Shown here piece after piece: positions 1,711 to 61,126 of a stretch of 64,000 nucleotides of DNA. The stretch spans positions 820,146 through 884,145 of the forward strand of contig CP082927.1 in NCBI GenBank assembly GCA_023038255.1, given 5' to 3'. Position numbers and translations under genes: made by a program. The notes below the pieces were generated by a model. It ran no database searches. It saw only the letters and a list, made by a program, of their open reading frames with translations, and was not told where the DNA came from. The number at the start of each line of letters is the position of its first letter. Positions within the stretch are counted from its first letter, which is position 1. Origin of the DNA: Candidatus Peribacteria bacterium. GTDB lineage: Bacteria; Patescibacteriota; Gracilibacteria; Peribacterales; Peribacteraceae.

Positions 1711-1742
1711 GGGTTATGGGTTATTGGTTATGGGTTATGGGG
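1711..1742 (+). repeat. Heptamer array, GGGTTAT units
   Basis: Four 7-bp units of GGGTTAT type, one with TGGTTAT, occupy the gap between the genes at 1098-1709 and 1764. It is one of about 19 such arrays in the window. Confidence 0.9.
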
Positions 1743-2156: not shown

Positions 2157-3432
2157 GCAGCATCCCGTGCGGCTCCTCTGGCACAAATCCAAAGCTCTGA
2201 CTGCCGCCGTGCGCTACGGTTTTCCGGCGAAGAAACTGACGGTGATTGGCGTGACGGGAACCGATGGAAAGACCACCACAGTGGGTATGATCGCGCATAT
2301 TCTGAACGCCAACGAGATTCCGACAGGTGCGCTGTCGACAGCCTTCTTTCAGATCAAAACCGACATCACCTGGAATGCCACACAGAAGACATCACCCAAC
2401 CCTTTCATCATCCAGAAGTTCCTGCGTCAGCTGATTCGTGAGGGGTGTACACATGCAGTGCTGGAATATTCATCGCACGGATTGATTCAGGGACGAACGC
2501 ACTTTACCTATCCGTTAATTGGAGCGATTACGAATGTGAGCGAGGAGCATCTCGATTACCACGGAACCATGCAGGAATATATCCGGGCAAAGGGACTGCT
2601 CTTCAGAATGCTGCAAAAAAAAGGCGGTGCAAAAATTCTCAATGCAGATGACCGGACATATGGTGCATACAGCAACATCCCAACAGAATGGTCGATTAGT
2701 TACAGTGCTGTCCGCCCCTTCGATGCATCATCTGATCTGCATCATCTGGGTATCTGGACAGGTCCGGTGCAGGTACATCCGCGTGGAGCATCTGCAGAAC
2801 TGTTCACGACAACGGCAGACATCCTCGATCCCCTGACTCTCAGTATTCCCGGCGCTTTCAATATTCAGAATGCGCTCTGTGCACTCAGCTGCGCGCATGC
2901 GGCAGGAGTGGACGTGAACCAATGCACGCTTGCCCTGAAAAGTTTCACCGGAATCCCAGGCCGCATGGAACGGATTGATGCCGGCCAGGATTTTTCGGTC
3001 TTCATCGACTTTACGGTGACACCGCAGTCCTATGAAGCAACGCTTTCGACTCTCAAAGCAATGTTGCCTGCCGATAAGCGCTTACTTGTCCTAATGGGAA
3101 GCTGCGGCGACCGCATGAAAGAAAAGCGTCCGGTCATCGGAAAGATTGCAAGCAACTACGCTGATGTCTTGGTTGTCACCAATGAAGATCCGTACACGGA
3201 AGATCCGGAAAAAATTATCGATGACGTGTGGGCGGGAATTGATCAGTCCAAAACAAAAGCCCACCGCATGTCTGACCGTAAAGAGGCTATAGAATTCCTG
3301 CTGAAGGAAGCCAAAAAAGATGACATCGTGATTCTGTGCGGCAAGGGATCGGATACGACCATGTGGGTAAAAAATGGGCAAGTGCCATGGAATGAGAGAG
3401 AGATCGTAAAGACACTTTTGTCACACTCGTGA
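2125..3432 (+). CDS. murE: MurE-like Mur ligase (UDP-MurNAc-tripeptide synthetase family)
   Basis: A Mur ligase of about 435 residues with P-loop GVTGTDGKTTTVG, EYSSHGL, ITNVSEEHLDYHG, the lysine/nucleotide region and the C-terminal domain GSCGDRMKEKRPVIG and TNEDPYTEDP. The TNEDP motif and overall order point to MurE, which adds the third residue to UDP-MurNAc-L-Ala-D-Glu. The usual YAHTPD segment reads DFTVTPQS here, so the histidine is missing. No classical DNPR diaminopimelate signature is visible, so the amino acid added is unclear. The start at 2125 is favoured over ATG 2095; both overlap the riboflavin kinase gene. Confidence 0.8.
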   Translation: MLHRLKKLIPEQHPVRLLWHKSKALTAAVRYGFPAKKLTVIGVTGTDGKTTTVGMIAHILNANEIPTGALSTAFFQIKTDITWNATQKTSPNPFIIQKFLRQLIREGCTHAVLEYSSHGLIQGRTHFTYPLIGAITNVSEEHLDYHGTMQEYIRAKGLLFRMLQKKGGAKILNADDRTYGAYSNIPTEWSISYSAVRPFDASSDLHHLGIWTGPVQVHPRGASAELFTTTADILDPLTLSIPGAFNIQNALCALSCAHAAGVDVNQCTLALKSFTGIPGRMERIDAGQDFSVFIDFTVTPQSYEATLSTLKAMLPADKRLLVLMGSCGDRMKEKRPVIGKIASNYADVLVVTNEDPYTEDPEKIIDDVWAGIDQSKTKAHRMSDRKEAIEFLLKEAKKDDIVILCGKGSDTTMWVKNGQVPWNEREIVKTLLSHS

Positions 3433-3501
3433 ATTACGATTTAAGAATTATGAATTATGGAAATACAATGGAGCCATAATTCATAACTCATCATTCATAC
3501 A
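3431..3501. repeat. Inverted pair of heptamer arrays (AATTATG family)
   Basis: The left array at 3431-3458 (GAATTAT type) and the right array at 3474-3501 (TCATAAC type) are inverted. They form a 13-bp perfect stem around a loop of roughly 13 bases. The pair fills the gap between the MurE-like gene and rnhB and could fold as a hairpin in RNA. Confidence 0.85.
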
Positions 3502-6346: not shown

Positions 6347-7486
6347 TCAGAGTCCGTTCGTCACCCTTTCGTTGATGACGCGCTGCAAAGCATCCGTTGC
6401 GCGATGATGATCAAAATGCAGCTCTGCATAGCTCCTTGCTTCATCAATGGCTTTCTCCCGCCGCTGATCATCATTCAAAGCATCAAGCAGAGCCCGTGCA
6501 CACTCCTCAGCATTCCCACTCTCAAACAAAAACCCCCGTTCCCCATAACCCATAACCGATAACCCATAACCCACCAGGCACCGCAACCCCTCACTTTCCG
6601 CAGCCACAACAGCCGTTCCTGCCATCATCGCTTCCGCAGCAGCCAGGCCAAATCCTTCCAGATACGCAGGACACACGGCCACTTCTGCCTGTTTCACGAC
6701 ACTGAGGAGATCCGAAAAGAGCAACCCGGGAATGCGGACGACGTGATGCAGATGTCTGATGCGCTCATCCAGACGATCGGCCAAAATCCCCTGTCCGATA
6801 ATCATCAGCTGTGCATCGGGGCGCTTCTCAGTAACAAGCGGCCAGGCTTGCAGCAGAAGCCCCACTCCTTTCCGTTCTTCCAATCGTGCAACGCAGACAC
6901 ACAGCCCTTTTTTCCTGGAGATCGTCGATGCCTCTTTCCATGTATCACTGACCGGATGCGGCAACGACACTATGCGATCCGCGGGGAGACGATACGTTTC
7001 TTCAAGCACACGACGGGTGTCTGTATTGAAACTGAGAATGAGCGATGCGTTGCGATAGGTTTTTTTCTCCAACGGAATGAAGACTTTCTTCCAACCCTGT
7101 CCCGGCACCAGCCGCGCCTGCTGCTCGTAAATGTGATACACAGAACAGATGTACGGAATGTTTGGCTTCTTCCAGAGAAAAACCCCACCCGGCCCACCGG
7201 GCATCATCAGAAAATCAATACGATGCTTTCTGATCCATCGACCCAACACAAAAGGCAATAATAAAGAGAAAAGCGTATGTCCACCAAACCGTTTCGTGAA
7301 AGAAAGCAGCGACGTCCCAGCGCCCCGGTAACCGGTAACCGGTAACCCATAACCGGGCGTCCCCACCACCACCTCGAAGTCCGCAGACAAGGACTCCGCA
7401 ATCCACTCCATCGACCGCCCCATCCCCCCTTTTGCATGCGAAAAATCCCAGCTCACAATGCCGATGGTTTTTTTAGCGGAAGACAT
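6347..7486 (-). CDS. GT4-family glycosyltransferase carrying two heptamer insertions
   Basis: A GT-B enzyme of about 380 residues. GIVSWDFSHAKGGMGRSMEW is the N-terminal glycine-rich loop, and ARLEERKGVGLLLQAW, PAYLEGFGLAAAEAMMAGTAVVA (the E-x7-E catalytic loop) and FLFESGN lie in the C-domain. Two period-7 arrays are read through: 7325-7355 gives a TPGYGLPVTGYRG segment, and 6542-6572 gives VGYGLSVMGYGERG just after EGLRCL, where homologues have a short turn. Starts at 7504, 7495 and 7486 are all possible; 7486 gives the smallest overlap with the upstream GT4 gene. The sugar and acceptor are unknown. Confidence 0.8.
   Translation of the reverse strand: MSSAKKTIGIVSWDFSHAKGGMGRSMEWIAESLSADFEVVVGTPGYGLPVTGYRGAGTSLLSFTKRFGGHTLFSLLLPFVLGRWIRKHRIDFLMMPGGPGGVFLWKKPNIPYICSVYHIYEQQARLVPGQGWKKVFIPLEKKTYRNASLILSFNTDTRRVLEETYRLPADRIVSLPHPVSDTWKEASTISRKKGLCVCVARLEERKGVGLLLQAWPLVTEKRPDAQLMIIGQGILADRLDERIRHLHHVVRIPGLLFSDLLSVVKQAEVAVCPAYLEGFGLAAAEAMMAGTAVVAAESEGLRCLVGYGLSVMGYGERGFLFESGNAEECARALLDALNDDQRREKAIDEARSYAELHFDHHRATDALQRVINERVTNGL
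6542..6572 (+). repeat. Heptamer array CCCATAA inside a GT4 gene
   Basis: Four units (CCCATAA, CCCATAA, CCGATAA, CCCATAA) lie in frame within the glycosyltransferase at 6347-7486. Confidence 0.9.
7325..7355 (+). repeat. Heptamer array CCGGTAA inside the same GT4 gene
   Basis: Three CCGGTAA units and one CCCATAA, read through in the N-terminal domain of the same glycosyltransferase. Confidence 0.9.
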
Positions 7487-8528: not shown

Positions 8529-8607
8529 GGTTATGAGTTATGAGTTACGGGTTAGAGGGAAACTGATACAATCCCGTAACCCATAACCGATTTCCCATAA
8601 CCCATCA
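8529..8607. repeat. Inverted pair of heptamer arrays in front of tsaD
   Basis: The left array 8529-8556 (GGTTATG, AGTTATG, AGTTACG, GGTTAGA) and the right array 8573-8607 (CCCGTAA, CCCATAA, CCGATTT, CCCATAA, CCCATCA) are inverted around 16 bp. The right array touches the first codon of the conserved TsaD frame. A TACAAT box (8567-8572) lies between the arms. Confidence 0.9.
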
Positions 8608-18959: not shown

Positions 18960-18980
18960 AACCTGCAACCTGCAACCTGT
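18960..18980 (+). repeat. Heptamer array AACCTGC between gdhA and trxB
   Basis: Three units (AACCTGC, AACCTGC, AACCTGT) lie between the two genes and touch the gdhA stop codon. Confidence 0.85.
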
Positions 18981-23668: not shown

Positions 23669-24975
23669 AGATCCAGGATCTCGCCGGCAAGAAAATCTGC
23701 ATCCTCGGCTTCGGGAAAGAAGGACAGGCCATGCTTGCAGCCATCCAGACACATGTGAAGAAATGCAAAATCACCGTCGCGGATGAAAACCCCGATGTAC
23801 TGAAGGAGCTCGCAGAGACAACGCCGTACTACCTGCAAAGCGGCGAAGAATGGCTGAAAGATCTAGAAAAGTTTGATGTCATCATCAAATCCCCAGGCAT
23901 CCCCCCTTCCAGTCTCCCCATAACCCATAACTCATTACCCATAACCTCATCGACCCAGATCTTCTTCGACACCATCGAAGGCTCTGGCGCAACGGTGATC
24001 GGTGTGACCGGCAGCAAAGGAAAAAGCACGACATCCAGCCTTCTCTACGCACTCCTTAAAACCGGCAAGAAGGAAGTGCATCTGATCGGAAACATCGGCG
24101 AACCTGCCATCAGCCATATTGATGACGCGAAGAACAGGACACTGTTTGTCATGGAAATGAGCAGCTACCAATTGATGGACCTCAAGACCTCACCACAGAT
24201 TGCCGTCATCACGAGCTTCTTCCCGGAACACCTGAATTATCATGGATCGATTGAGGCTTATATGGATGCCAAAAAACACATCACGCGTTTTCAGACAGAG
24301 AGTGACCTCGTATTTTTCTGTGCAACATCCGATGGAGCGACCGAGATCGCGAACGAAAGCCGTGGAACCAAAATCCCCTTTTCCATGAAAGATGCTCCCG
24401 TCAGCATCCCGGACACGCAGCTGATTGGAGATCATAATCTCAGTAACATTGCCGGAGCATTCATGGTTGCAACCAAGCTTGGCATTGAGGAAAAAGCGGC
24501 GATCGAGGTGATCAAAACTTTTAAAGGTCTCCCGCACCGTCTCCAGTCACTCGGCATTCACCATGGACAGGAATGGATTGATGACGCGATTTCCACCACA
24601 CCGGAATCAACCATCGCCGCGCTCGACGCGCTCGACAGCAGAGTGGAAATTCTCATTCTCGGCGGACAGGACAGAGGGAACGATTTCGGCGCACTCGGGG
24701 AGCGCATCAAAGCGTCATCCGTCAGCACAGTGATTCTTTTCCCCGGCAGCGGCCCGCGCATCAGACAGGCGATCATAGATGCGGGTGCAGCCGTGGAATT
24801 CTTCGATGCTGCGTCCATGGAAGACGCTGTGACCATCGCCAAGAAAGTGACAGGCGGCAGAACACCGCTCGGACACCCGATTGTCCTGCTTTCGACCGCA
24901 TCGCCAAGCTACGGCATGTTCAAAAACTTCGAGGAGAAAGGCAACATCTTTGCCCACTACGTGCAGATGGCATAA
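23665..24975 (+). CDS. murD: MurD-type ligase (probably MurD2, L-Glu adding)
   Basis: Mur ligase of 436 residues with N-terminal Rossmann ILGFGKEGQAM, P-loop GVTGSKGKSTTSSLLY, EMSSYQL, SFFPEHLNYHGS, GLPHRLQ and the DDAISTTPES segment, all typical of MurD. Translationally coupled to murL, it most likely adds L-Glu, the substrate order of the MurD2/MurL route, rather than D-Glu; this is inference from context. Residues around 82-97 (PPSSLPITHNSLPITSST) are encoded by a heptamer array at 23917-23944, an insertion between the first domain and the P-loop. Confidence 0.88.
   Translation: MKIQDLAGKKICILGFGKEGQAMLAAIQTHVKKCKITVADENPDVLKELAETTPYYLQSGEEWLKDLEKFDVIIKSPGIPPSSLPITHNSLPITSSTQIFFDTIEGSGATVIGVTGSKGKSTTSSLLYALLKTGKKEVHLIGNIGEPAISHIDDAKNRTLFVMEMSSYQLMDLKTSPQIAVITSFFPEHLNYHGSIEAYMDAKKHITRFQTESDLVFFCATSDGATEIANESRGTKIPFSMKDAPVSIPDTQLIGDHNLSNIAGAFMVATKLGIEEKAAIEVIKTFKGLPHRLQSLGIHHGQEWIDDAISTTPESTIAALDALDSRVEILILGGQDRGNDFGALGERIKASSVSTVILFPGSGPRIRQAIIDAGAAVEFFDAASMEDAVTIAKKVTGGRTPLGHPIVLLSTASPSYGMFKNFEEKGNIFAHYVQMA
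23917..23944 (+). repeat. Heptamer array CCCATAA inside murD
   Basis: Four units (CCCATAA, CCCATAA, CTCATTA, CCCATAA) are read in frame as part of SSLPITHNSLPIT in the MurD ligase. Confidence 0.9.
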
Positions 24976-27632: not shown

Positions 27633-27667
27633 GAAAAAAGCTCGACTTTAAATAGGGCAACCGCCCT

Positions 27668-27709
27668 ACCGTTTTTCATCATTTTTTTACCGTTTTTCAT
27701 CATTTTTTT
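27668..27709 (+). repeat. Two perfect 21-bp tandem units
   Basis: ACCGTTTTTCATCATTTTTTT is repeated twice without mismatch, preceded by a small hairpin AGGGC/GCCCT. The 21-bp period is three times seven. The T-rich end could stop transcription. Confidence 0.8.
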
Positions 27710-30104: not shown

Positions 30105-31694
30105 ATGCTCCTCCTTTTCGGAATTCTGACCATTATCGGGTGTCTATCGCCTCTTCTGACATTCCTGGCTCTTTTCCAGCAGAAGGAATGGCGCCTGGAC
30201 CGTTTGGGAGAGCACCTGCGCCGGGAAGGCGTTATCCGACAGCTCTGGGGGTGGGTGCGACCGGGCATGGCTGTTCTGTTTGTCCTGACTGACATCTTTT
30301 TTGTCTTCATGGTCCGCAATGCGACAAATAGTAACGAGGCCGCTCAGTTGGCACTCCTGCTTCTCGTTGCACATGGAGGCTGGCTTCTGTTCTTTGCAGG
30401 AATGACCGCAGTACAGCTCCTCCTCCACAAGCAGCGCTCCCCCGTCTGGACCAGCAAAGCAAAACTGATGGCCGTCATTGCAGGGATGCTCGACATTGCT
30501 GCCACCAGCATCTGGCTGTTTTCCATCTATTCTCCGGCCGTCATTCTGCTGGCGCAGCCACTCATTGTCCTCATCGCCTGGGCTGCCCTGCTGCCGCTCG
30601 ACAGGTATCTGAAGGCGCAATGGTTCGCACGCGCACGCGCTGTCCGCGACACCTGGAAAGATTCCATTGTGATCGGTATTGCAGGAAGCGTCGGAAAGAC
30701 AACCACTAAAGAGCTCATCAAACATTTACTAAGTGATCTACATCCGATTACTACACCTGCACACGTGAACACAGAAATGGGCGTCGCTCAATGGATGGTC
30801 ACTGAAAGCCGAAAGATGAAAGCCGAACGCTCACCTGTCATTGTAGAGATGGGCGCCTATAAAAAAGGAGAAATCGCTCTGATGTGTACATTCGTAAAAC
30901 CGACGATTGGTGTGATGACCGCACTCGGCTCAGATCATCTGGCCCTCTTCGGATCGGAAGACGCAATCACAGAGGCAAACGCCGAACTGCTTCATGCTCT
31001 CCCGAAAAGCGGGCACGCATTTCTCTACGCCGATAACAACGCCGTGCGATCTCTGGTTTCGACTCTCGATTGTCACGTGACGCTTGCCGGGCTTCATAAA
31101 GATGCAGATATCCGCGTGGAAAAAGTCACAGAGACCGATAAGGGCCTGACTGCCCATCTGGAAGATACGACCTGTACCGTTGCCCTGCATGGCATGCACA
31201 ACGTCGGCAATATTCTTCTTGCGGTTGGTATCGCCAAAAAACTCGGCATCAGCGATGAGCGGATCAGAGAGCTTTTGGAATCCTTCCAGCCTCTCGCCCA
31301 CACCTTCAATGTCCGTACCGAACACGGCGTCCGCATTGTCGATGACACCTATAACAGCAGTCTCCTCAGTATCCGCGCCGCACTCGATTGGGCGAAATCC
31401 CAGAATGAACGCCCGCGTATTCTGCTGATGAGCGGATTACTGGAAACTGGAAACCAGGAAGAGGCATTTTTAAAGGAGCTCGGAGCCGCCGCCAAAGGCA
31501 GTATCGAACGCGTGATTTTCACAGCGGATACCGGCCGCACCGCCTTTGAAGAAACCTACGGCAAACCGGTCGAGATCCTCTCCAGTCACAGCACTCCCGC
31601 TCCAGCCGGCAGCCTCCTCCTCTGCCTCGGCCGCATGCCCCTCTCTGCAATCCAAAAACTTCTCTCCAAGTCCCCCATAACCCATAACCCATAA
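30105..31694 (+). CDS. murF: Membrane domain fused to MurF-like Mur ligase
   Basis: About 180 N-terminal residues form four or five membrane segments, then a Mur ligase follows: P-loop GIAGSVGKTTTKELI, VNTEMGVAQW, VEMGAYKKGEI, TALGSDHLALFGS, and DDTYNSSLLSIRAAL near the C-terminal domain. This motif set is MurF type, the enzyme adding D-Ala-D-Ala to UDP-MurNAc-tripeptide. Classical MurF is soluble and about 450 residues, so the membrane extension is unusual. The last codons (SPITHNP) and the stop come from a heptamer array. First gene of an operon with 31701, 32933 and 33340. Confidence 0.75.
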   Translation: MLLLFGILTIIGCLSPLLTFLALFQQKEWRLDRLGEHLRREGVIRQLWGWVRPGMAVLFVLTDIFFVFMVRNATNSNEAAQLALLLLVAHGGWLLFFAGMTAVQLLLHKQRSPVWTSKAKLMAVIAGMLDIAATSIWLFSIYSPAVILLAQPLIVLIAWAALLPLDRYLKAQWFARARAVRDTWKDSIVIGIAGSVGKTTTKELIKHLLSDLHPITTPAHVNTEMGVAQWMVTESRKMKAERSPVIVEMGAYKKGEIALMCTFVKPTIGVMTALGSDHLALFGSEDAITEANAELLHALPKSGHAFLYADNNAVRSLVSTLDCHVTLAGLHKDADIRVEKVTETDKGLTAHLEDTTCTVALHGMHNVGNILLAVGIAKKLGISDERIRELLESFQPLAHTFNVRTEHGVRIVDDTYNSSLLSIRAALDWAKSQNERPRILLMSGLLETGNQEEAFLKELGAAAKGSIERVIFTADTGRTAFEETYGKPVEILSSHSTPAPAGSLLLCLGRMPLSAIQKLLSKSPITHNP

Positions 31695-31696
31695 CC
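31674..31696 (+). repeat. Heptamer array CCCATAA at the end of the MurF-like gene
   Basis: Three CCCATAA units supply the last codons and the TAA stop of the MurF-like gene, six bases before the GTG of the next gene. Confidence 0.9.
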
Positions 31697-33343: not shown

Positions 33344-34443
33344 TCACCCAGATTGCAGACAACCGGCAGGAGTGGGATGACTTTCTGAAAAGCCAGCGCT
33401 TCTCGCCGTTCCTCCAGAGCTGGACTATGGGAGAGGTCTACCGCGATATCGGACAAGAACCGGTCAGACTGGAAGTGCGCGATGATGGAAAGATTGTCGG
33501 TATCTGTCAGGCGATTTTGGTACCCGCACGCAGAGGACGGCATTTGATGGTGCAGTATGGACCAGTGGTCGGTTATGGGTTATCGGTTATGGGTCATGGG
33601 GTTTTTGAAATGTTGGTTGATGGATTGAAAGAAGAAGCCCGGAAGCATCGCTGTAGTTTTGTACGCATGAGCCCCTTTGCCTCCGATACTCATCAAGAGC
33701 AACTCAAAGGAATCTCATCACCTCTGCATCTTTTAGCGGAGCACATCTGGTATCTCCCCCTCACAACCGACGATCAGTGGCCCCCCGTAACCCATCACTC
33801 ATTACCCATAACCAAAAGATCAGAAGAAGAGATCCTCATGGCAATGCGAAAGACGACTAGAAACCTCATTCGGAGAGCCGAGAAAGACGGCGTCACCGTT
33901 GAGCTGTCGACTGATCCGGTTCGCGATGTGGAAGAGTTCATCAAGCTCCATGATGAAACCCGCAAGCGCCATCACTTCACGCCCTACACCAACAGCTTTT
34001 TCCGCGCGCAGGTGAAGCGATTCGCGGAAGCCGGAAACGTTCTCGTTTATATCGCAAAACACGAAGGACAGATTCTCGCGACCTCCATCCACATGCAGTT
34101 TGGCGGTGAGACCAGCTATCATCATGGCGCCAGTGTGATGACCAAAGTCCCCGCAAGCTACCTGCTCCAGTGGCGCGCGATTCAGGATGCCATCAAGCGC
34201 GGCGACAGCGTCTATAACTTCTGGGGCATTGCACCCATGAGCGAGAAAAAGTCTGAAGACGGACAGGAATCCAAGGCAGAAATCCTGAATCCGAAACATC
34301 CTTTTGCAGGAGTGACACTCTTCAAGACCGGCTTTGGCGGAAAGCTGCTCAACCTCGAACACTGCTTCGATCTCCCGCTCTCATCGAAATACTATCTGAC
34401 GAGAACATTTGAATACATCCGCAAGTGGAAGCGCGGGTTTTAA
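33340..34443 (+). CDS. FemX/FemAB-like peptidyltransferase with two heptamer insertions
   Basis: The protein of 367 residues has the two GNAT-like halves of FemABX enzymes, with SPFLQSWTMGEVYRDIG near the N terminus, RKTTRNLIRRAEKDGV, LHDETRKRHHF and GASVMTKVPASYLLQWRAI in the second half. These enzymes add amino acids from aminoacyl-tRNA to lipid II side chains. Two stretches, VVGYGLSVMGHGVF and PPVTHHSLPITKRS, are encoded by heptamer arrays in inverted orientation and have no counterpart in the family. Coupled to the MurF-like operon. Confidence 0.8.
   Translation: MITQIADNRQEWDDFLKSQRFSPFLQSWTMGEVYRDIGQEPVRLEVRDDGKIVGICQAILVPARRGRHLMVQYGPVVGYGLSVMGHGVFEMLVDGLKEEARKHRCSFVRMSPFASDTHQEQLKGISSPLHLLAEHIWYLPLTTDDQWPPVTHHSLPITKRSEEEILMAMRKTTRNLIRRAEKDGVTVELSTDPVRDVEEFIKLHDETRKRHHFTPYTNSFFRAQVKRFAEAGNVLVYIAKHEGQILATSIHMQFGGETSYHHGASVMTKVPASYLLQWRAIQDAIKRGDSVYNFWGIAPMSEKKSEDGQESKAEILNPKHPFAGVTLFKTGFGGKLLNLEHCFDLPLSSKYYLTRTFEYIRKWKRGF
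33571..33598 (+). repeat. Heptamer array GGTTATG inside the FemX-like gene
   Basis: Units GGTTATG, GGTTATC, GGTTATG, GGTCATG are read in frame. It forms an inverted pair with 33784-33811. Confidence 0.9.
33784..33811 (+). repeat. Heptamer array CCCGTAA inside the FemX-like gene
   Basis: Units CCCGTAA, CCCATCA, CTCATTA, CCCATAA are read in frame. It is oriented opposite to 33571-33598, 185 bp away. Confidence 0.9.
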
Positions 34444-36354: not shown

Positions 36355-38058
36355 TTACATGCGGTCTGGGACGCGCAATGTGAGAAGTTCGGCGCCGGTT
36401 TTCAGGACAGTCGCCGTTAGGGATGTAAGTGACAAACGAAGATCGCGCTGAGGTGTCTCAGCCTGAAGAATGTTTTCCGTGTTATAGAAGGAATTGAAAT
36501 CCTGACACAGCTGGTACAGGAAATTCGCAAGTTTGTGTGGCAAATGTTCGCTCCGCGCTTCAACCAGAACCTGCGGGAACTGGAGCAATGTTCCAATCAG
36601 AATTCTCTCCGGCATAGACAGCTCTTTCACCCCAATTTCCAATTTCCAATTTCCAATTTCCTTCTCGGCCTTACGGAGAACAGACTTCGCACGCGCATGC
36701 GTGTACTGCAGATACGGCGCGCTGTTTCCTTCAAAGCTCAGCATCTTGTCCCAGTCGAACACCATATCCATTTTGCGGTTCTGACTGAGGATGCCGTAGA
36801 CGAGTGCCCCGACGCCCATCATGTTCGCCAGCTCTTCTGCATTATCAGTCTGGATGGTTTCGCCACGCTCTTCTGTAATAGCCCTTGCGCGGGCAACCGC
36901 CTCTTCAATCACATGTTCCAGTTTGAGCACTGTTCCCTTGCGTGTACTCATGGAAGAATCAGAAAAACGCATGCGTCCGAAGAGCACATTTTCAAAGGTC
37001 GGAATATCCCATTCAAGCTGCTGACACGTTGCAACCAGCTGCTGAAAATGCATCTTCTGGGCAATGTCTGTCAGGATGTAGATGGCCTGCGGATGATATG
37101 TCTCCATGCGGTATTTCATCTGTGCAATATCGCGCGTGGAATAGAGTGTCGCTCCATCACTTTTCTGGACAAGATACGGCGGCAGTTTTGACTCTTCGGG
37201 AAACTGCACAATCCACGACCCACCTTCCCCTTCCACGAATACCTTCTTTTTTTTGCCGGCCTCCAAAAGAGGTTCCATTTTGTCTTCGTAAAAACTCTCA
37301 CCCTTATCAATATCAAACGAAACATGGAGCTTGGTGTAGAGATCCGCCAGAGACTCTTTGGTGACGCTTACGACATCCATCCAGAATGCACGAAGCGCAG
37401 CATCCCCACTCTCCAGTTTTCGGAAGGCCTCACGCCCCTGATCCTCCAGTGTTTCATCGTTCTCCACTTCTTTATGAAAGCGTACATACAAATCCAGAAG
37501 TTCATCGAGCGTACAGTCTTTCACCGGTTTCCCCCCTCCCCATTTTTCATACGCCACAGCGAGTTTCCCGAACTGCGTTCCCCAATCTCCAATATAGTTC
37601 CACGCAAGAACAGGATACCCTGTGTGTCTGTAGAGGTTCACGAGCGCCTGTCCGATTGTTGTTCCGATGATGTGATGGATGCCAAGGGGTTTGGCAATAT
37701 TCGGCTGTGAGTATTCGATGATCACCGGTGCTTCATCGCGTGTCTTTTGGGGAGTGCAGGCGTGCAGAGTTTCTTCCAGTTCTTTCATGAGTGCTGCGGG
37801 TGTCAGCCAGATGTTGACGTACCCCGCTCCCGCAACCTCCGCTTTTTCAACAGACGGGCTGTTCGTGAGGGCCTCCACAATCTGCATCGCCACGTCCTGA
37901 GGTTTCAGGTTTTTTGCACGTGCAATTCTGAGTGCAACAATCGTCGTAATGTCGCCGTGTGTGGCCTCCTTCGGGGTCTGCCACTCCACCGGAATATCAC
38001 TGATTCCAAACAGTGATTGCACTGCCTGATTGGCTTCGGTGGCAAGGAAGGAAAACAT
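36355..38058 (-). CDS. argS: Arginyl-tRNA synthetase
   Basis: ArgRS of 567 residues, with the N-terminal domain, PNIAKPLGIHHIIGTTIG (the HIGH-motif region, read here as GIHH), WNYIGDWGTQFGKL, MSTRKGTVLKLEHVIEEA (KMSKS variant) and the DALR anticodon-binding domain. Residues EKEIGNWKLEIGVKE are encoded by a CCAATTT heptamer array at the start of the DALR domain. ATG 38058 is chosen; GTG 38070 is also possible. The MSTRKG loop groups it with mitochondrial/archaeal-like ArgRS. Confidence 0.92.
   Translation of the reverse strand: MFSFLATEANQAVQSLFGISDIPVEWQTPKEATHGDITTIVALRIARAKNLKPQDVAMQIVEALTNSPSVEKAEVAGAGYVNIWLTPAALMKELEETLHACTPQKTRDEAPVIIEYSQPNIAKPLGIHHIIGTTIGQALVNLYRHTGYPVLAWNYIGDWGTQFGKLAVAYEKWGGGKPVKDCTLDELLDLYVRFHKEVENDETLEDQGREAFRKLESGDAALRAFWMDVVSVTKESLADLYTKLHVSFDIDKGESFYEDKMEPLLEAGKKKKVFVEGEGGSWIVQFPEESKLPPYLVQKSDGATLYSTRDIAQMKYRMETYHPQAIYILTDIAQKMHFQQLVATCQQLEWDIPTFENVLFGRMRFSDSSMSTRKGTVLKLEHVIEEAVARARAITEERGETIQTDNAEELANMMGVGALVYGILSQNRKMDMVFDWDKMLSFEGNSAPYLQYTHARAKSVLRKAEKEIGNWKLEIGVKELSMPERILIGTLLQFPQVLVEARSEHLPHKLANFLYQLCQDFNSFYNTENILQAETPQRDLRLSLTSLTATVLKTGAELLTLRVPDRM
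36632..36661 (+). repeat. Heptamer array CCAATTT inside argS
   Basis: Four exact CCAATTT units plus CC, read in frame as KEIGNWKLEIG. Confidence 0.9.
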
Positions 38059-43404: not shown

Positions 43405-43468
43405 GTCATGGTGAGCGGAGCCGAACCAGACAAAAAAACCGAGGCCAAAACCCCGGTCTTCTTATTTC

Positions 43469-43496
43469 TGATCTCAGATCACCGATCTCCGATCTC
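43469..43496 (+). repeat. Heptamer array CGATCTC
   Basis: Units TGATCTC, AGATCAC, CGATCTC, CGATCTC. The array touches the 3' end of the Pur-alpha-like gene. Confidence 0.85.
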
Positions 43497-55251: not shown

Positions 55252-56361
55252 ATGAAAGTAGCCCTCGTCCATGAGCTTCTGACCATGCGTGGCGGCGCCG
55301 AGCGCGTCCTGCGGATTCTTGCGCGCACGTTTCCGGACGCCCCGATCTACACGCTGCTCTACGACGAGAAAAAGCTTGGGGAATGGTTTCCAAAAGAAAG
55401 AGTGCGGCCCGGCATCAAAAATCCTGCCAGCTTCAATCATCATCGGTACCTGAAGCAATTCCCGAAAGTAGCGGAAGCCTGGGACTTTTCGGAGTTTGAT
55501 CTGGTCATCAGCAGTTCGTCTGCCTTCGTGCACGGCATCATCACCAACGGCAAACCCAAACATCTGTGCTACGTGCACTCCCCTGCCCGCTATCTGTGGG
55601 ACCGGACACATGATGTGGTGGATCGTGCGTCGCAAGGACCGCTTGGATTCCTGAAGAAGATCTATCTGGAATCCACATTTCACACACTCCGCAGATGGGA
55701 CGCAGAAGTCGCCCCACGTCCGGACATGCTCATTGCCGCATCCAAAGAAGTGCAGCGCCGCATCCAGCTCTACTGGGACCGGAACAGCGACATCATCTAC
55801 CCGCCGATAAGTGACGATTGGTTCGTCAAAGCCCCCAATAACCAATCACCAATAACCAATCACCAATTCCTCATCGTTTCCTCCCTCGTCGACTACAAAC
55901 GCATCGACATCGCAATCCACGCCTGTAACAACCTGAAACTACCCCTGAAGATTGTCGGCGAAGGCCCATCGAAGGCTGCACTGCAGTCCATCGCCGGACC
56001 GACAATCAATTTTCTTGGATACAAAGATCATGATGAGCTGAAGCAACTCTACAGAGATGCAACCGCAACCATCGTCCCCGGCAAAGAAGACTTCGGTCTT
56101 GTTGCACTGGAATCCATGGCGTCCGGAACACCGGTCGTGGGACATGGTGAAGGAGGCATTACAGAAACAGTGTTGGATGGGGTAACCGGAGCGTTTTTTG
56201 ACGCAGAAACACCCGAATCTTTGATGGAAATCCTGCATGAGTTCGATCCAAAAAAATACTCAGTCCAAAAGTGCAGAGAGCAGGCGGAAAAGTTCAGAGA
56301 ATCTGAGTTTGTACAAAAGTTGCATTCATCCATAAAAACCCTGATGAGCAACGGTCACTGA
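55252..56361 (+). CDS. GT4-family glycosyltransferase with heptamer insertion
   Basis: GT-B enzyme of 369 residues: VHELLTMRGGAERVL (N-terminal loop), HSPARYLWD, AASKEVQRRI, VSSLVDYKRIDIAI, VGEGPSK, PGKEDFGLVALESMASGTPVVG. Between the two domains, residues around 195-207 (APNNQSPITNHQF) come from a CCAATAA/CCAATCA heptamer array. TACACT is exactly 6 bp before the ATG. Donor and acceptor unknown; mannosyltransferase-type relatives share HSPARYLWD. Confidence 0.85.
   Translation: MKVALVHELLTMRGGAERVLRILARTFPDAPIYTLLYDEKKLGEWFPKERVRPGIKNPASFNHHRYLKQFPKVAEAWDFSEFDLVISSSSAFVHGIITNGKPKHLCYVHSPARYLWDRTHDVVDRASQGPLGFLKKIYLESTFHTLRRWDAEVAPRPDMLIAASKEVQRRIQLYWDRNSDIIYPPISDDWFVKAPNNQSPITNHQFLIVSSLVDYKRIDIAIHACNNLKLPLKIVGEGPSKAALQSIAGPTINFLGYKDHDELKQLYRDATATIVPGKEDFGLVALESMASGTPVVGHGEGGITETVLDGVTGAFFDAETPESLMEILHEFDPKKYSVQKCREQAEKFRESEFVQKLHSSIKTLMSNGH
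55835..55869 (+). repeat. Heptamer array CCAATAA inside a GT4 gene
   Basis: Five units (CCAATAA, CCAATCA, CCAATAA, CCAATCA, CCAATTC), read in frame between the two domains of the glycosyltransferase. Confidence 0.92.
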
Positions 56362-56717: not shown

Positions 56718-56823
56718 GGATATCCGTCACCGGACATCAGGTATCGGCGCTTTTTAAAGAAGCTTTCTCCAAAGACAAAGCATTTTTCACATCCCGGTGA
56801 CCGGTGACCGATACCTGGTTACC
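56718..56823. repeat. Inverted pair of heptamer arrays
   Basis: Left 56718-56745 (GGATATC, CGTCACC, GGACATC, AGGTATC) and right 56794-56822 (CCGGTGA, CCGGTGA, CCGATAC, CTGGTTA) share the inverted arm CAGGTATCGG/CCGATACCTG. They enclose about 48 bp and border the 3' end of ruvB. Confidence 0.85.
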
Positions 56824-58661: not shown

Positions 58662-59090
58662 ATGGCAAAGAAGATCAAGAAAGTCATCAAAGTGCAAGCA
58701 CGCGGCGGACAGGCAAACCCTGCTCCCCCACTCGGTCCGGCCCTCGGTCAGGCGGGTGTTGATATCCAGGGATTCTGCACGCAGTTCAACGCTGCGACGA
58801 AGGATCGTATGGGACAGCTCGTGCCAGTGCAGATTACAGTGTACGAGGACCGCACATTCTCTTTTGTCACAAAGCAAGCTCCGGCTGCCGAACTCATCAA
58901 GGAAATCACCAAAGTGAAGAACGGCTCCGGCGAACCGAACAAGAAGAAAGTCGGCAACATCACCCAGGCTCAGCTTCGCGAGATTGCAACCATCAAAATG
59001 CCGGATCTCAACACGAAAGACATTGAGTCCGCTATGCACTCCCTCGCAGGAACAGCTAGAAGCATGGGAATCACGGTTGAAGCTGCGTAA
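58662..59090 (+). CDS. rplK: Ribosomal protein uL11
   Basis: L11 of 142 residues with the N-terminal [22 protein letters not shown] pattern and the C-terminal RNA-binding domain ending in [14 protein letters not shown]. It forms the GTPase-associated centre with 23S rRNA. Normally rplA follows within a few bases; here a 487-bp heptamer-flanked cassette and another gene come between. Confidence 0.96.
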
Positions 59091-59093
59091 CGT

Positions 59094-59580
59094 TGGTTAT
59101 GGGTAATGAGTTATGGGTTATGGGGATTTTTGGAGATTGCGTTTTGTTGATTCAATGAGCCCAGATAACAGCCTTCTTTGTCTCTCAACTATTTGAAGAG
59201 CTTTTTGAATATGTTCTTGTGGTGCGAATTTAATGCGAATAGCTATATAAAGAAACGCCTCAACCTCCGTACACTCACCTCTTGCAATTGTGTATTTATT
59301 AGCTTTATCAGCGTAGGTAAAACGTCCAAAACCTTCTGCCAGATTTGCAAGAATACTCGTTGATGCTGAGCGCATTTGTGATGTCATCTCATAGAGCTCT
59401 GTACGCGGAAATTTTTCAGTCAGCCTGTAGATCTCTTCAATAAGATCCAGGCCATTTTTCCAGGCCTCTAAATCACGATACGATTGCATCTTTCTTTTTT
59501 ATAACAACAAAACTTTTTTACAAGTTTTTAGTGCATATCCGTACACCCTACCCATAACCCATAACCGATAACTCATAACC
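59094..59580. mobile_element. Four-helix-bundle cassette with inverted heptamer ends
   Basis: The left array 59094-59125 (TGGTTAT, GGGTAAT, GAGTTAT, GGGTTAT) and the right array 59551-59580 (CCCATAA, CCCATAA, CCGATAA, CTCATAA) are inverted and bracket one gene. The unit begins 4 bp after the rplK stop and separates it from rplA. The outer limits and any target duplication cannot be defined from one copy. Confidence 0.65.
59118..59489 (-). CDS. Four-helix-bundle protein (23S rRNA intervening-sequence / S23 type)
   Basis: The 123-residue protein begins YRDLEAWKNGLDLIEEIYRL and has ANLAEGFGRFTYADKANKYT and ARGECTEVEAFLYIAIR, the S23/IVP four-helix-bundle signature. Relatives are encoded in 23S rRNA intervening sequences and resemble Avd of diversity-generating retroelements. 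Their role is unclear and probably nucleic-acid binding. The stop codon comes from the left heptamer array. The gene points against the ribosomal operon. Confidence 0.85.
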   Translation of the reverse strand: MQSYRDLEAWKNGLDLIEEIYRLTEKFPRTELYEMTSQMRSASTSILANLAEGFGRFTYADKANKYTIARGECTEVEAFLYIAIRIKFAPQEHIQKALQIVERQRRLLSGLIESTKRNLQKSP

Positions 59581-59683: not shown

Positions 59684-60319
59684 ATGCCCCTGACCCCCAT
59701 CACCGTCTCCGCAATGTTTCAATCTGTCGGTATTGTCTCCGGTTTCTTCCTGCCGATTGCCGTTCTCTTTCTCTTTGCGGTCCTTGTCATTCCGGGCTTG
59801 TCCCGCGCTGGTACGAAGCCGGAAACACTGGCAATGGCTGCGTACGGCTATCTGGCGGAATCACTGGGCATCATTCTCATGACCGCAGGCGGACTCCCTG
59901 CAGTACACGCAGTCGTCTCACACCAGATTCTTACAAGTAACACCTACCTCGGGCTCCTGCTGCTTTTCATTATTGGCGGCATCACGTACCTCTGGCATGA
60001 CTCCATGCTCCAGAAAGTCGACAGCATCTCAAAGGCAATTCCTGCAGCTCTCTTCTTCTACTCCTGGAAGTTTATCGGTCTCCTTGTTGCTCTCTTTGCC
60101 AGCTTGTCTTTCATTCTTGAGCTCCTCGTGGGCGCTAGCGGACAGACCTACGGCTGGTGGAACGTGCATCTGGTGATGCTCCTCTACGGACTCCTGCTGT
60201 GCTGGTTTACCGTTAAACCGCACACGCCGGCTGCTGTCGCACGCCCCACCCCTGTCCTGAAGCCCAGGACCGTGATTGCCTCAAAAGCCAAGAAGCCTGC
60301 AGCAAAGAAGGCTAAATAG
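59684..60319 (+). CDS. Polytopic membrane protein with lysine/alanine-rich tail
   Basis: The protein of 211 residues has about five membrane segments. A cytoplasmic tail rich in Lys/Ala/Pro (ending KAKKPAAKKAK) could bind nucleic acid or the ribosome. ATG 59684 is chosen (MPLTPITVSAMF); the frame from 59609 lacks a hydrophobic start. It sits between the cassette and rplA. No family recognised. Confidence 0.5.
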   Translation: MPLTPITVSAMFQSVGIVSGFFLPIAVLFLFAVLVIPGLSRAGTKPETLAMAAYGYLAESLGIILMTAGGLPAVHAVVSHQILTSNTYLGLLLLFIIGGITYLWHDSMLQKVDSISKAIPAALFFYSWKFIGLLVALFASLSFILELLVGASGQTYGWWNVHLVMLLYGLLLCWFTVKPHTPAAVARPTPVLKPRTVIASKAKKPAAKKAK

Positions 60320-60418: not shown

Positions 60419-61126
60419 ATGTCCAAGCAGACAGTACAGCCGCGCGTGAAAGTCCGTGGCAAAAAGTACCGCGAAGTTGCGGCTCTTGTTGATGCAACGA
60501 AGTTGTATTCCATGGAGGAAGCAACGGAACTTATCACAAAGCTCAACACTACCAAGTTCGATGCGACTGCAGAAGCACACGTCCGCATCAACGCAGACAC
60601 AACACAGGCTGACCAGCTTGTCCGCACCACAGTGAACCTGCCGCACGGAACCGGTAAGACCGTCCGCGTCGCAGCATTCGTTCCGGATGATCTGATTGAT
60701 GAAGCAAAGAAGGCAGGTGCAGAAATTGCAGGAAACGATGATCTCATTGCCGCTATCGAGGCAGGAGAAATCAACTTCGATGTCGCCATCGCCGTGCCAG
60801 CTATGATGAAAAACCTCGGTAAGATCGCCAAGTCTCTCGGACAGAAAGGTCTCATGCCGAACCCGAAGGCAGGAACGGTCACAGAGAACGTCGGAAAGAC
60901 GATCGAAGCACTCAAGAAAGGACGTATTGAATGTAAGATGGATAAGTTCGGCATCATCCACGTACCGTTCGGAAAAGTCAGCTTTGGTGGCAAGAAACTT
61001 GCAGAGAACCTCAAGGCTCTCATCGCCGGTATCGAGGAAGCTCGTCCGTCAGGAATCAAGAACACCTACATCATGACTCTGAACATTGCTCCGACCATGG
61101 GTCCGGGCGTGAAAATTCAGCTGTAA
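60419..61126 (+). CDS. rplA: Ribosomal protein uL1
   Basis: L1 of 235 residues: RGKKYREVAALVD, TAEAHVRINADTTQADQLVR, LPHGTGKTVRVAAF, GLMPNPKAGTV and KFGIIHVPFGKVSF. It binds 23S rRNA at the L1 stalk and often represses its own operon. The start at 60419 removes the unconserved N-terminal extension from 60356. A terminator follows. Confidence 0.96.
   Translation: MSKQTVQPRVKVRGKKYREVAALVDATKLYSMEEATELITKLNTTKFDATAEAHVRINADTTQADQLVRTTVNLPHGTGKTVRVAAFVPDDLIDEAKKAGAEIAGNDDLIAAIEAGEINFDVAIAVPAMMKNLGKIAKSLGQKGLMPNPKAGTVTENVGKTIEALKKGRIECKMDKFGIIHVPFGKVSFGGKKLAENLKALIAGIEEARPSGIKNTYIMTLNIAPTMGPGVKIQL

Follow-up and report, generated by a model that had tools for sequence, protein, structure and literature searches.

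An S23 gene between inverted heptamer arrays downstream of rplK as part of a probable minimal mobile element

Introduction

To our knowledge, no function is known for the widespread PF05635 proteins, no mechanism has been offered for the intervening sequences (IVSs) of 23S rRNA during the decades in which they were called selfish, and no origin is accepted for the heptanucleotide repeats of bacteria. The best comparison for the locus described here is the 23S IVS of Coxiella burnetii. There, terminal inverted repeats of 28 bp form a stem whose loop carries an S23p ORF, tandem GACAGAT heptamers of strain-variable number directly precede S23p at the 5' end, and the IVS, termed a selfish element, is excised by RNase III (PMC4990558). 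Heptanucleotide repeats were described as GGGAATC in Xanthomonas and GGGGA(C/T)T in Nostoc (PMC4692102) and as TAACTGA in Beggiatoaceae (PMC4679880). Among open-access papers none was found which links S23 genes to inverted heptamer arrays outside of rRNA; this is no proof of absence.

Here, an S23 cassette of approximately 490 bp was analyzed, which is located between rplK and a membrane-protein gene of a 1.24-Mb single-contig genome, in the following called the window genome. The term "window" is used for the whole 64-kb stretch of DNA that was analyzed. We consider the S23 cassette to be, with good probability, a minimal mobile element and use the term "S23 element" in this sense throughout the paper.

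Results and Discussion

The S23 cassette of the window

The coordinates of the cassette, its neighbors and further arrays of the window are given in Table 1. The predicted protein scored 107.7 bits against PF05635 (cut-off 33.8) and 101.2 bits against TIGR02436 (cut-off 24). Its AF2 monomer model (pLDDT 95) was matched by Foldseek to 2gsc with a TM of 0.90, which is the S23 fold, and additionally to 2rld and to Avd. The gene is firmly a true member of the S23/23S_rRNA_IVP family. Invariant polar residues of S23 are E31, Q38, S45, N49, E52, and E75, which from their conservation are candidates for binding or catalysis.

The two terminal arrays, each of approximately 30 nt with a period of 7, form the top-scoring inverted array pair of the window (inverted match score 40). 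The left array begins 4 nt past the rplK stop codon (TAA, 59088-59090), and the stop codon of the S23 gene falls within this array. Folding of the cassette RNA yielded one long stem of the paired arrays (z -3.4), the loop of which contains the gene. An earlier note on this DNA had proposed an S23-type gene between inverted heptamer arrays that splits rplK from rplA. Profile matches and array pair confirmed the first part of this proposal. As to the second, the cassette indeed lies in the operon, but the membrane-protein gene also intervenes, so that rplK is split from that gene. The window copy is best read as one insertion of an S23 element between rplK and the next gene.

A small hairpin GCGTTCT...AGAACG, followed by a T-rich stretch and GGCTTATA, was observed between left array and S23 start at four other loci (L066, L090, L102, L218); it may represent an RNA element to which S23 binds.

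Table 1. Features of the S23 cassette, its neighbors and further arrays in the window.
Feature	Position	Strand	Remarks
Solo GGTTATG array	1711..1741		
Short gene-less inverted hairpin, other unit GAATTAT	3431..3499		core ~15 nt, score 25
Solo GGTTATG array	6534..6573	other strand	
Short gene-less inverted hairpin, candidate mini form	8530..8588		core ~15 nt, score 25
Solo GGTTATG array	23917..23946	other strand	
Solo GGTTATG array	31674..31696	other strand	
Inverted GGTTATG pair without S23 gene, candidate mini form	33571..33813		score 30
rplK (L11), upstream neighbor	58662..59090	+	142-aa ORF; PF03946 match
Left terminal array, GGTTATG x ~4.3, GGTTATGGGTAATGAGTTATGGGTTATGGG	59095..59124		G-rich strand inward
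S23 / 23S_rRNA_IVP four-helix-bundle gene, 123 aa	59118..59489	-	profiles, AF2 model, Foldseek
Leader, 60 nt, S23 start codon to right array	59490..59549		sequence
Right terminal array, CCCATAA x ~4.4, inverted copy of left array	59550..59580		
Membrane-protein gene, downstream neighbor	59684..60319	+	kept between rplK and rplA in family
rplA (L1)	60419..61126	+	ORF; tblastn

Matched inverted arrays flank S23 genes across bacterial phyla

Two sets of S23 genes were employed. For the CPR set, related genomes sampled at species level provided 75 S23 genes. The wide set comprised the best 80 S23 matches from a scan of GTDB representatives, belonging to approximately 25 phyla (Bacteroidota, Bacillota, Planctomycetota, Acidobacteriota, Pseudomonadota, Spirochaetota, Chloroflexota, many CPR phyla, and others); the query was a single protein, and these 80 best matches are biased towards its subfamily. 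Using flanks of 150 nt, matched inverted ends were found for 58 of the 75 CPR genes, using flanks of 250 nt for 63, compared to 2.4-3.0% for ends of different loci and 0.1-0.6% for random window pairs from the same loci. The corresponding values for the wide set were 56/80 (150 nt) and 59/80 (250 nt) versus 2.2-2.5% for mismatched ends and 0.3-1.2% for random windows. The arrangement which the earlier note had described for one locus thus recurs around the S23 genes of relatives.

A tandem array on at least one side was present at 67/75 CPR S23 genes versus 2.7% of random windows; for Y1_Tnp genes of related genomes, taken as a contrast set, an array on either side was detected in 3/20. Wherever CPR loci carried arrays on both sides, the period was identical (33/33). 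Array repeat number was approximately 4.4 regardless of the period, with array length growing accordingly (23, 31, 34, and 39 nt), and the G-rich strand pointed inward in 46/50 and 53/56 arrays. A single genome contained up to 21 S23 genes.

The array unit co-varies with the S23 protein

Units of 6, 7, 8 or 9 nt were observed, varying among cassettes and even inside one genome. In the 18 genomes for which at least 2 cassettes had been sampled, a cassette's own two ends matched each other in 39/48 cases, ends of different cassettes in 0/98. This result bears on the possibility that the arrays are independent host heptanucleotide repeats of the STRR type with S23 genes in between by chance. S23-free heptamer arrays are common in some genomes, and such repeats were described in Nostoc, Xanthomonas, and Beggiatoaceae (PMC4692102, PMC4679880), but the contrast between own and cross ends within one genome and the low rate in random windows (0.1-1.2%) leave this explanation hardly any credibility. 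Chance or general host repeats as the source of the arrays were refuted by the own/cross, random-window, and shuffle controls.

Array period and unit track the S23 protein tree. On the tree of 75 proteins, period 7 required 11 changes versus 24.6 after shuffling and period 9 required 5 versus 14.0 (0/500 shuffles each). At non-orthologous sites, shared array sequence rose from 0 at a protein similarity below 0.4 to 25% above 0.6 (Mantel p 0.001). At orthologous cassettes from different genera, the ends stayed complementary while the unit changed (median score 34.5 for own and 20 for cross-ortholog ends).

The conserved complementarity despite unit change, together with the stable stem of the window cassette and the cutting of the Coxiella IVS by RNase III (PMC4990558), would agree with arrays kept solely as a processing stem, i.e. 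an IVS-like excision hairpin, of an element that has lost its mobility in this lineage. Such a role would leave unexplained why the repeats stand in tandem, why their copy number is constant while the period varies, and why protein and unit co-vary at non-orthologous sites; we regard a function at the RNA level alone as unlikely compared to the mobile S23 element.

Period-9 arrays were mostly found in one S23 clade (L001, L081, L094, L096, and others); their sequence is rich in purines and, if translated, would give acidic repeats (EEPEET...). Arrays of periods 7 and 8 often contained TAG or TGA in shifting frames. The array period may be related to read-through of neighboring genes. The second S23 gene of the window genome (L001, G000:C1:521737-522054) is located directly after a YchF-like GTPase gene and carries period-9 arrays; the orthologous sites L094 and L101 showed other period-9 units.

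Empty, gene-less and filled states of the same sites

The gene order rplK-membrane gene-rplA was kept in the family, and both gaps were usually array-free and approximately 50-140 bp long. A gene-less inverted hairpin with a period of 6, 7, 8 or 9 occupied a gap in several genera (G002, G003, G012, G015, G023, G030, G031, and G033 are examples). Finally, in three genomes a gap of 594-749 bp harbored an S23-family gene between arrays, on the rplK side in the window genome and on the rplA side in G003 and G030, the G030 gene being a divergent PF05635 member (38.5 bits). Related genera thus differ at this locus, which is empty, carries a gene-less hairpin (mini state) or contains S23 (full state). 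For the window locus, the empty site suggested by the earlier note was found as presence/absence among genera, but a target duplication was not readable. Many CPR cassettes were orthologous across genera, i.e. many are old residents and not recent insertions.

More closely related junctions were available from cyanobacterial plasmids, where S23 cassettes are located within operon genes or between them (conjugation, ribonucleotide reductase, cas6-cas4). One cassette was present on Trichormus variabilis and Scytonema plasmids, with the Scytonema left array two units shorter; its site was empty on the approximately 98% identical plasmids of Nostoc linckia, Tolypothrix, and Nostoc carneum. The empty sequence aaaaagTAATTAACAAATAA corresponded to aaaaagTAAT-cassette-TAATTAACAAATAA in the filled state, a clean insertion of 428 bp including a duplication of TAAT (or GTAAT). 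In Brasilonema, a gene-less hairpin with the unit of this cassette was found at the identical insertion point, and Nostoc C052 plasmid pE contained a decayed copy. The same cassette family occupied two other sites, three in all (78-82% DNA identity), and the homology among its copies ended at the outer array ends. Full and empty versions were found on separate plasmids of one strain, Nostoc C052. The clean target duplication was seen at one plasmid site only, the other plasmid sites showing presence/absence with diverged junctions.

With these data, empty sites were obtained, together with a target duplication at one plasmid site, and the proposal of the earlier note that gene-less inverted pairs are empty or mini forms gained support from the hairpin with matching unit at a full-cassette point. 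Greatly expanded arrays were observed for the cassettes L274 and L277, which are located between cas6 and cas4 in type I-D CRISPR operons of Anabaena and Pseudanabaena plasmids.

Gene-less arrays in the window and in whole genomes

Fourteen period-7 arrays were detected in the window versus 0 in each of 10 Markov shuffles. Of the four gene-less pairs listed by the earlier note, 33571/33784 was solid (score 30), while 3431/3475, with its differing unit GAATTAT, and 8529/8573 were recovered as shorter hairpins; the fourth, at 56718, is not a period-7 array by the criterion used. The solo GGTTATG-type arrays at 1711, 6534, 7325, 23917, and 31674 had no good partner within 700 bp.

Some further repeats of the window were observed. 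A CCAATAA/CCAATCA array of 4.7 copies (55835-55867) lies in frame within a glycosyltransferase-like ORF (55252-56361), giving the peptide NNQSPITNHQF, and was apparently inserted in the coding sequence. Unpaired perfect or near-perfect period-7 arrays at 36632-36661, 18960-18979, and 43459-43496 (units CCAATTT, AACCTGC, and GATCTCC) are possibly traces of other S23-unit systems. A perfect 21-bp tandem repeat of two copies, TACCGTTTTTCATCATTTTTT, is located at 27667-27709.

Genome-wide, 104 matches to the GGTTAT array pattern and 6 to the reversed pattern were counted in the window genome, compared to 0-14 in relatives. The pattern GAGCTNT had no match in the window genome; genomes with a GAGCTNT S23 cassette contained 47, 22, 68, 41, 6, and 3 matches to it, and 19 of 21 other genomes contained none. 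Many dispersed matches were gene-less inverted pairs, and solo arrays as well as gene-less hairpins carried the unit of the S23 cassette of the same genome. Solo arrays also remained in genomes without S23 (G005, G008, G042), which counts against the S23-element model. At G000:C1:29648-30170 (L020), inverted GGTTATG arrays 467 bp apart bracket a cytidylyltransferase-like gene instead of S23; host-gene capture or two independent solo arrays are possible.

Numerous solo arrays with the unit of the resident cassette, and likewise the co-variation of protein and array, would also be expected for an autoregulator, with the arrays as operators of S23 and the solo arrays as its regulon. There is no need, however, for operators to occur in inverted form at both sides of the gene or to make a clean insertion with duplicated target; gene-less hairpins were found at full-cassette points, and the insertion sites belong to unrelated operons (ribosomal, CRISPR, ribonucleotide reductase, and conjugation). 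Regulation of this kind is very improbable as the explanation, and the mobile S23 element is kept as the preferred one.

A model for the S23 element and the enzymes involved

In the S23 element, two inverted tandem arrays (approximately 4.4 copies of a 6-9-nt unit) form a long stem, whose loop contains a single S23 gene. A ring of S23, related in fold to the Avd ring, may recognize its own array as RNA hairpin or as single-stranded DNA, perhaps with one repeat per subunit. S23 might then direct its own cassette to be inserted and do the same in trans for gene-less copies, with the strand chemistry provided by repair or replication enzymes of the host or by a still unrecognized S23 activity. 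The stem folds in either transcript, and RNase III could excise the element from the operon mRNA, as from the Coxiella 23S rRNA, which would render insertions between operon genes tolerable. The idea of the earlier note that the cassette is moved or maintained by the S23 family together with heptamer ends is supported by flanks, empty sites, and the duplication at one plasmid site; catalysis by S23 is outside this outcome.

The cassette itself encodes S23 only and no recognized transposase, nuclease or polymerase. In the window genome (99.2% complete, one contig), no match was obtained for PF00078 (RVT_1), PF01797 (Y1_Tnp), PF01609 (DDE_Tnp_1), PF00665 (rve), or PF00872 (Transposase_mut). A resident motor of the RT or Y1 type was rejected for this genome on these grounds, and the common DDE families are absent as well. 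Moreover, 21 of 97 S23-bearing genomes had neither RT nor Y1. A resident RT or Y1 is therefore not needed.

S23 could nevertheless be a chaperone or a selfish passenger, with the cassettes copied by a trans-acting host enzyme (RT, Y1 transposase or another one). The Avd fold of S23, which serves an RT, speaks for such a passive role, and so does the correlation of S23 copy number with Y1_Tnp of the IS200/REP type (rho 0.55, 144 related genomes) and, weakly, with RT (rho 0.24). The correlation with Y1 makes trans-mobilization possible, but may reflect only the load of mobile elements. Against it stand the missing matches to all five profiles in the window genome, where a past helper is conceivable, and the 21 genomes mentioned above. 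We treat the passive role as a tentative and somewhat improbable account.

S23 cassettes appear to be a widespread kind of minimal mobile element across bacterial phyla. In its broadest form, the model would assign to S23 the recognition, and possibly also the catalysis, in a new class of minimal mobile elements that end in inverted tandem arrays. This class would occur across bacteria in many protein-unit pairs without cross-matching, would seed at least some of the dispersed heptanucleotide repeats, and would include the S23-type 23S IVSs as members that landed in rRNA. We see an even chance that this holds. The single rule that an S23 gene comes with an inverted array of its own ties PF05635, 23S IVSs, and heptanucleotide repeats together and makes them testable, and the co-varying protein-unit pairs represent a ready-made specificity code. 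If S23 is the only dedicated mobility protein, it would be a four-helix-bundle ring, which is unusual for that role.

Comparison with known systems

S23 elements resemble MITEs and insertion sequences in their terminal inverted repeats, gene-less short forms, and, at one site, a short target duplication. They differ in that their ends are tandem arrays with a copy-specific unit and their sole protein is no known transposase. Dispersed hairpins in combination with one small protein gene are shared with the REP/RAYT (Y1) system; RAYT, however, is a Y1 nuclease, and Y1 loci carried GC-rich hairpins, with the tandem arrays restricted to the 3/20 cases given above. The repeats of Xanthomonas, Nostoc, and Beggiatoaceae are short intergenic heptamer arrays like those of S23, in Xanthomonas even with convergent pairs, but no link to S23 was made in these papers (PMC4692102, PMC4679880). 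Avd of the diversity-generating retroelements (4dwl, 8ub7) has a fold in common with the S23 model (TM 0.75-0.78). Identity to the window S23 is approximately 11%, and Avd works with an RT and a template repeat, while the window genome is devoid of an RT.

The 23S IVS of Coxiella, as far as the available part of its description reaches, shares with the window element the S23 ORF in the loop of a terminal inverted-repeat stem. It is located in rRNA helix 45, the window element outside of rRNA, and tandem arrays at two ends, a link between unit and protein, gene-less derivatives, and copies outside of rRNA do not appear in that part of the account (PMC4990558). Of the features that define an IVS, the window cassette has the S23 ORF enclosed by a terminal inverted-repeat stem, whereas a location in 23S rRNA helix 9, 25 or 45 was replaced by the gap between rplK and the membrane-protein gene. 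For this reason, the window element was kept apart from the 23S IVSs and filed as a free-standing representative of that kind. Conversely, the Coxiella-type 23S rRNA IVS is best read as the rRNA-resident form of the S23 element.
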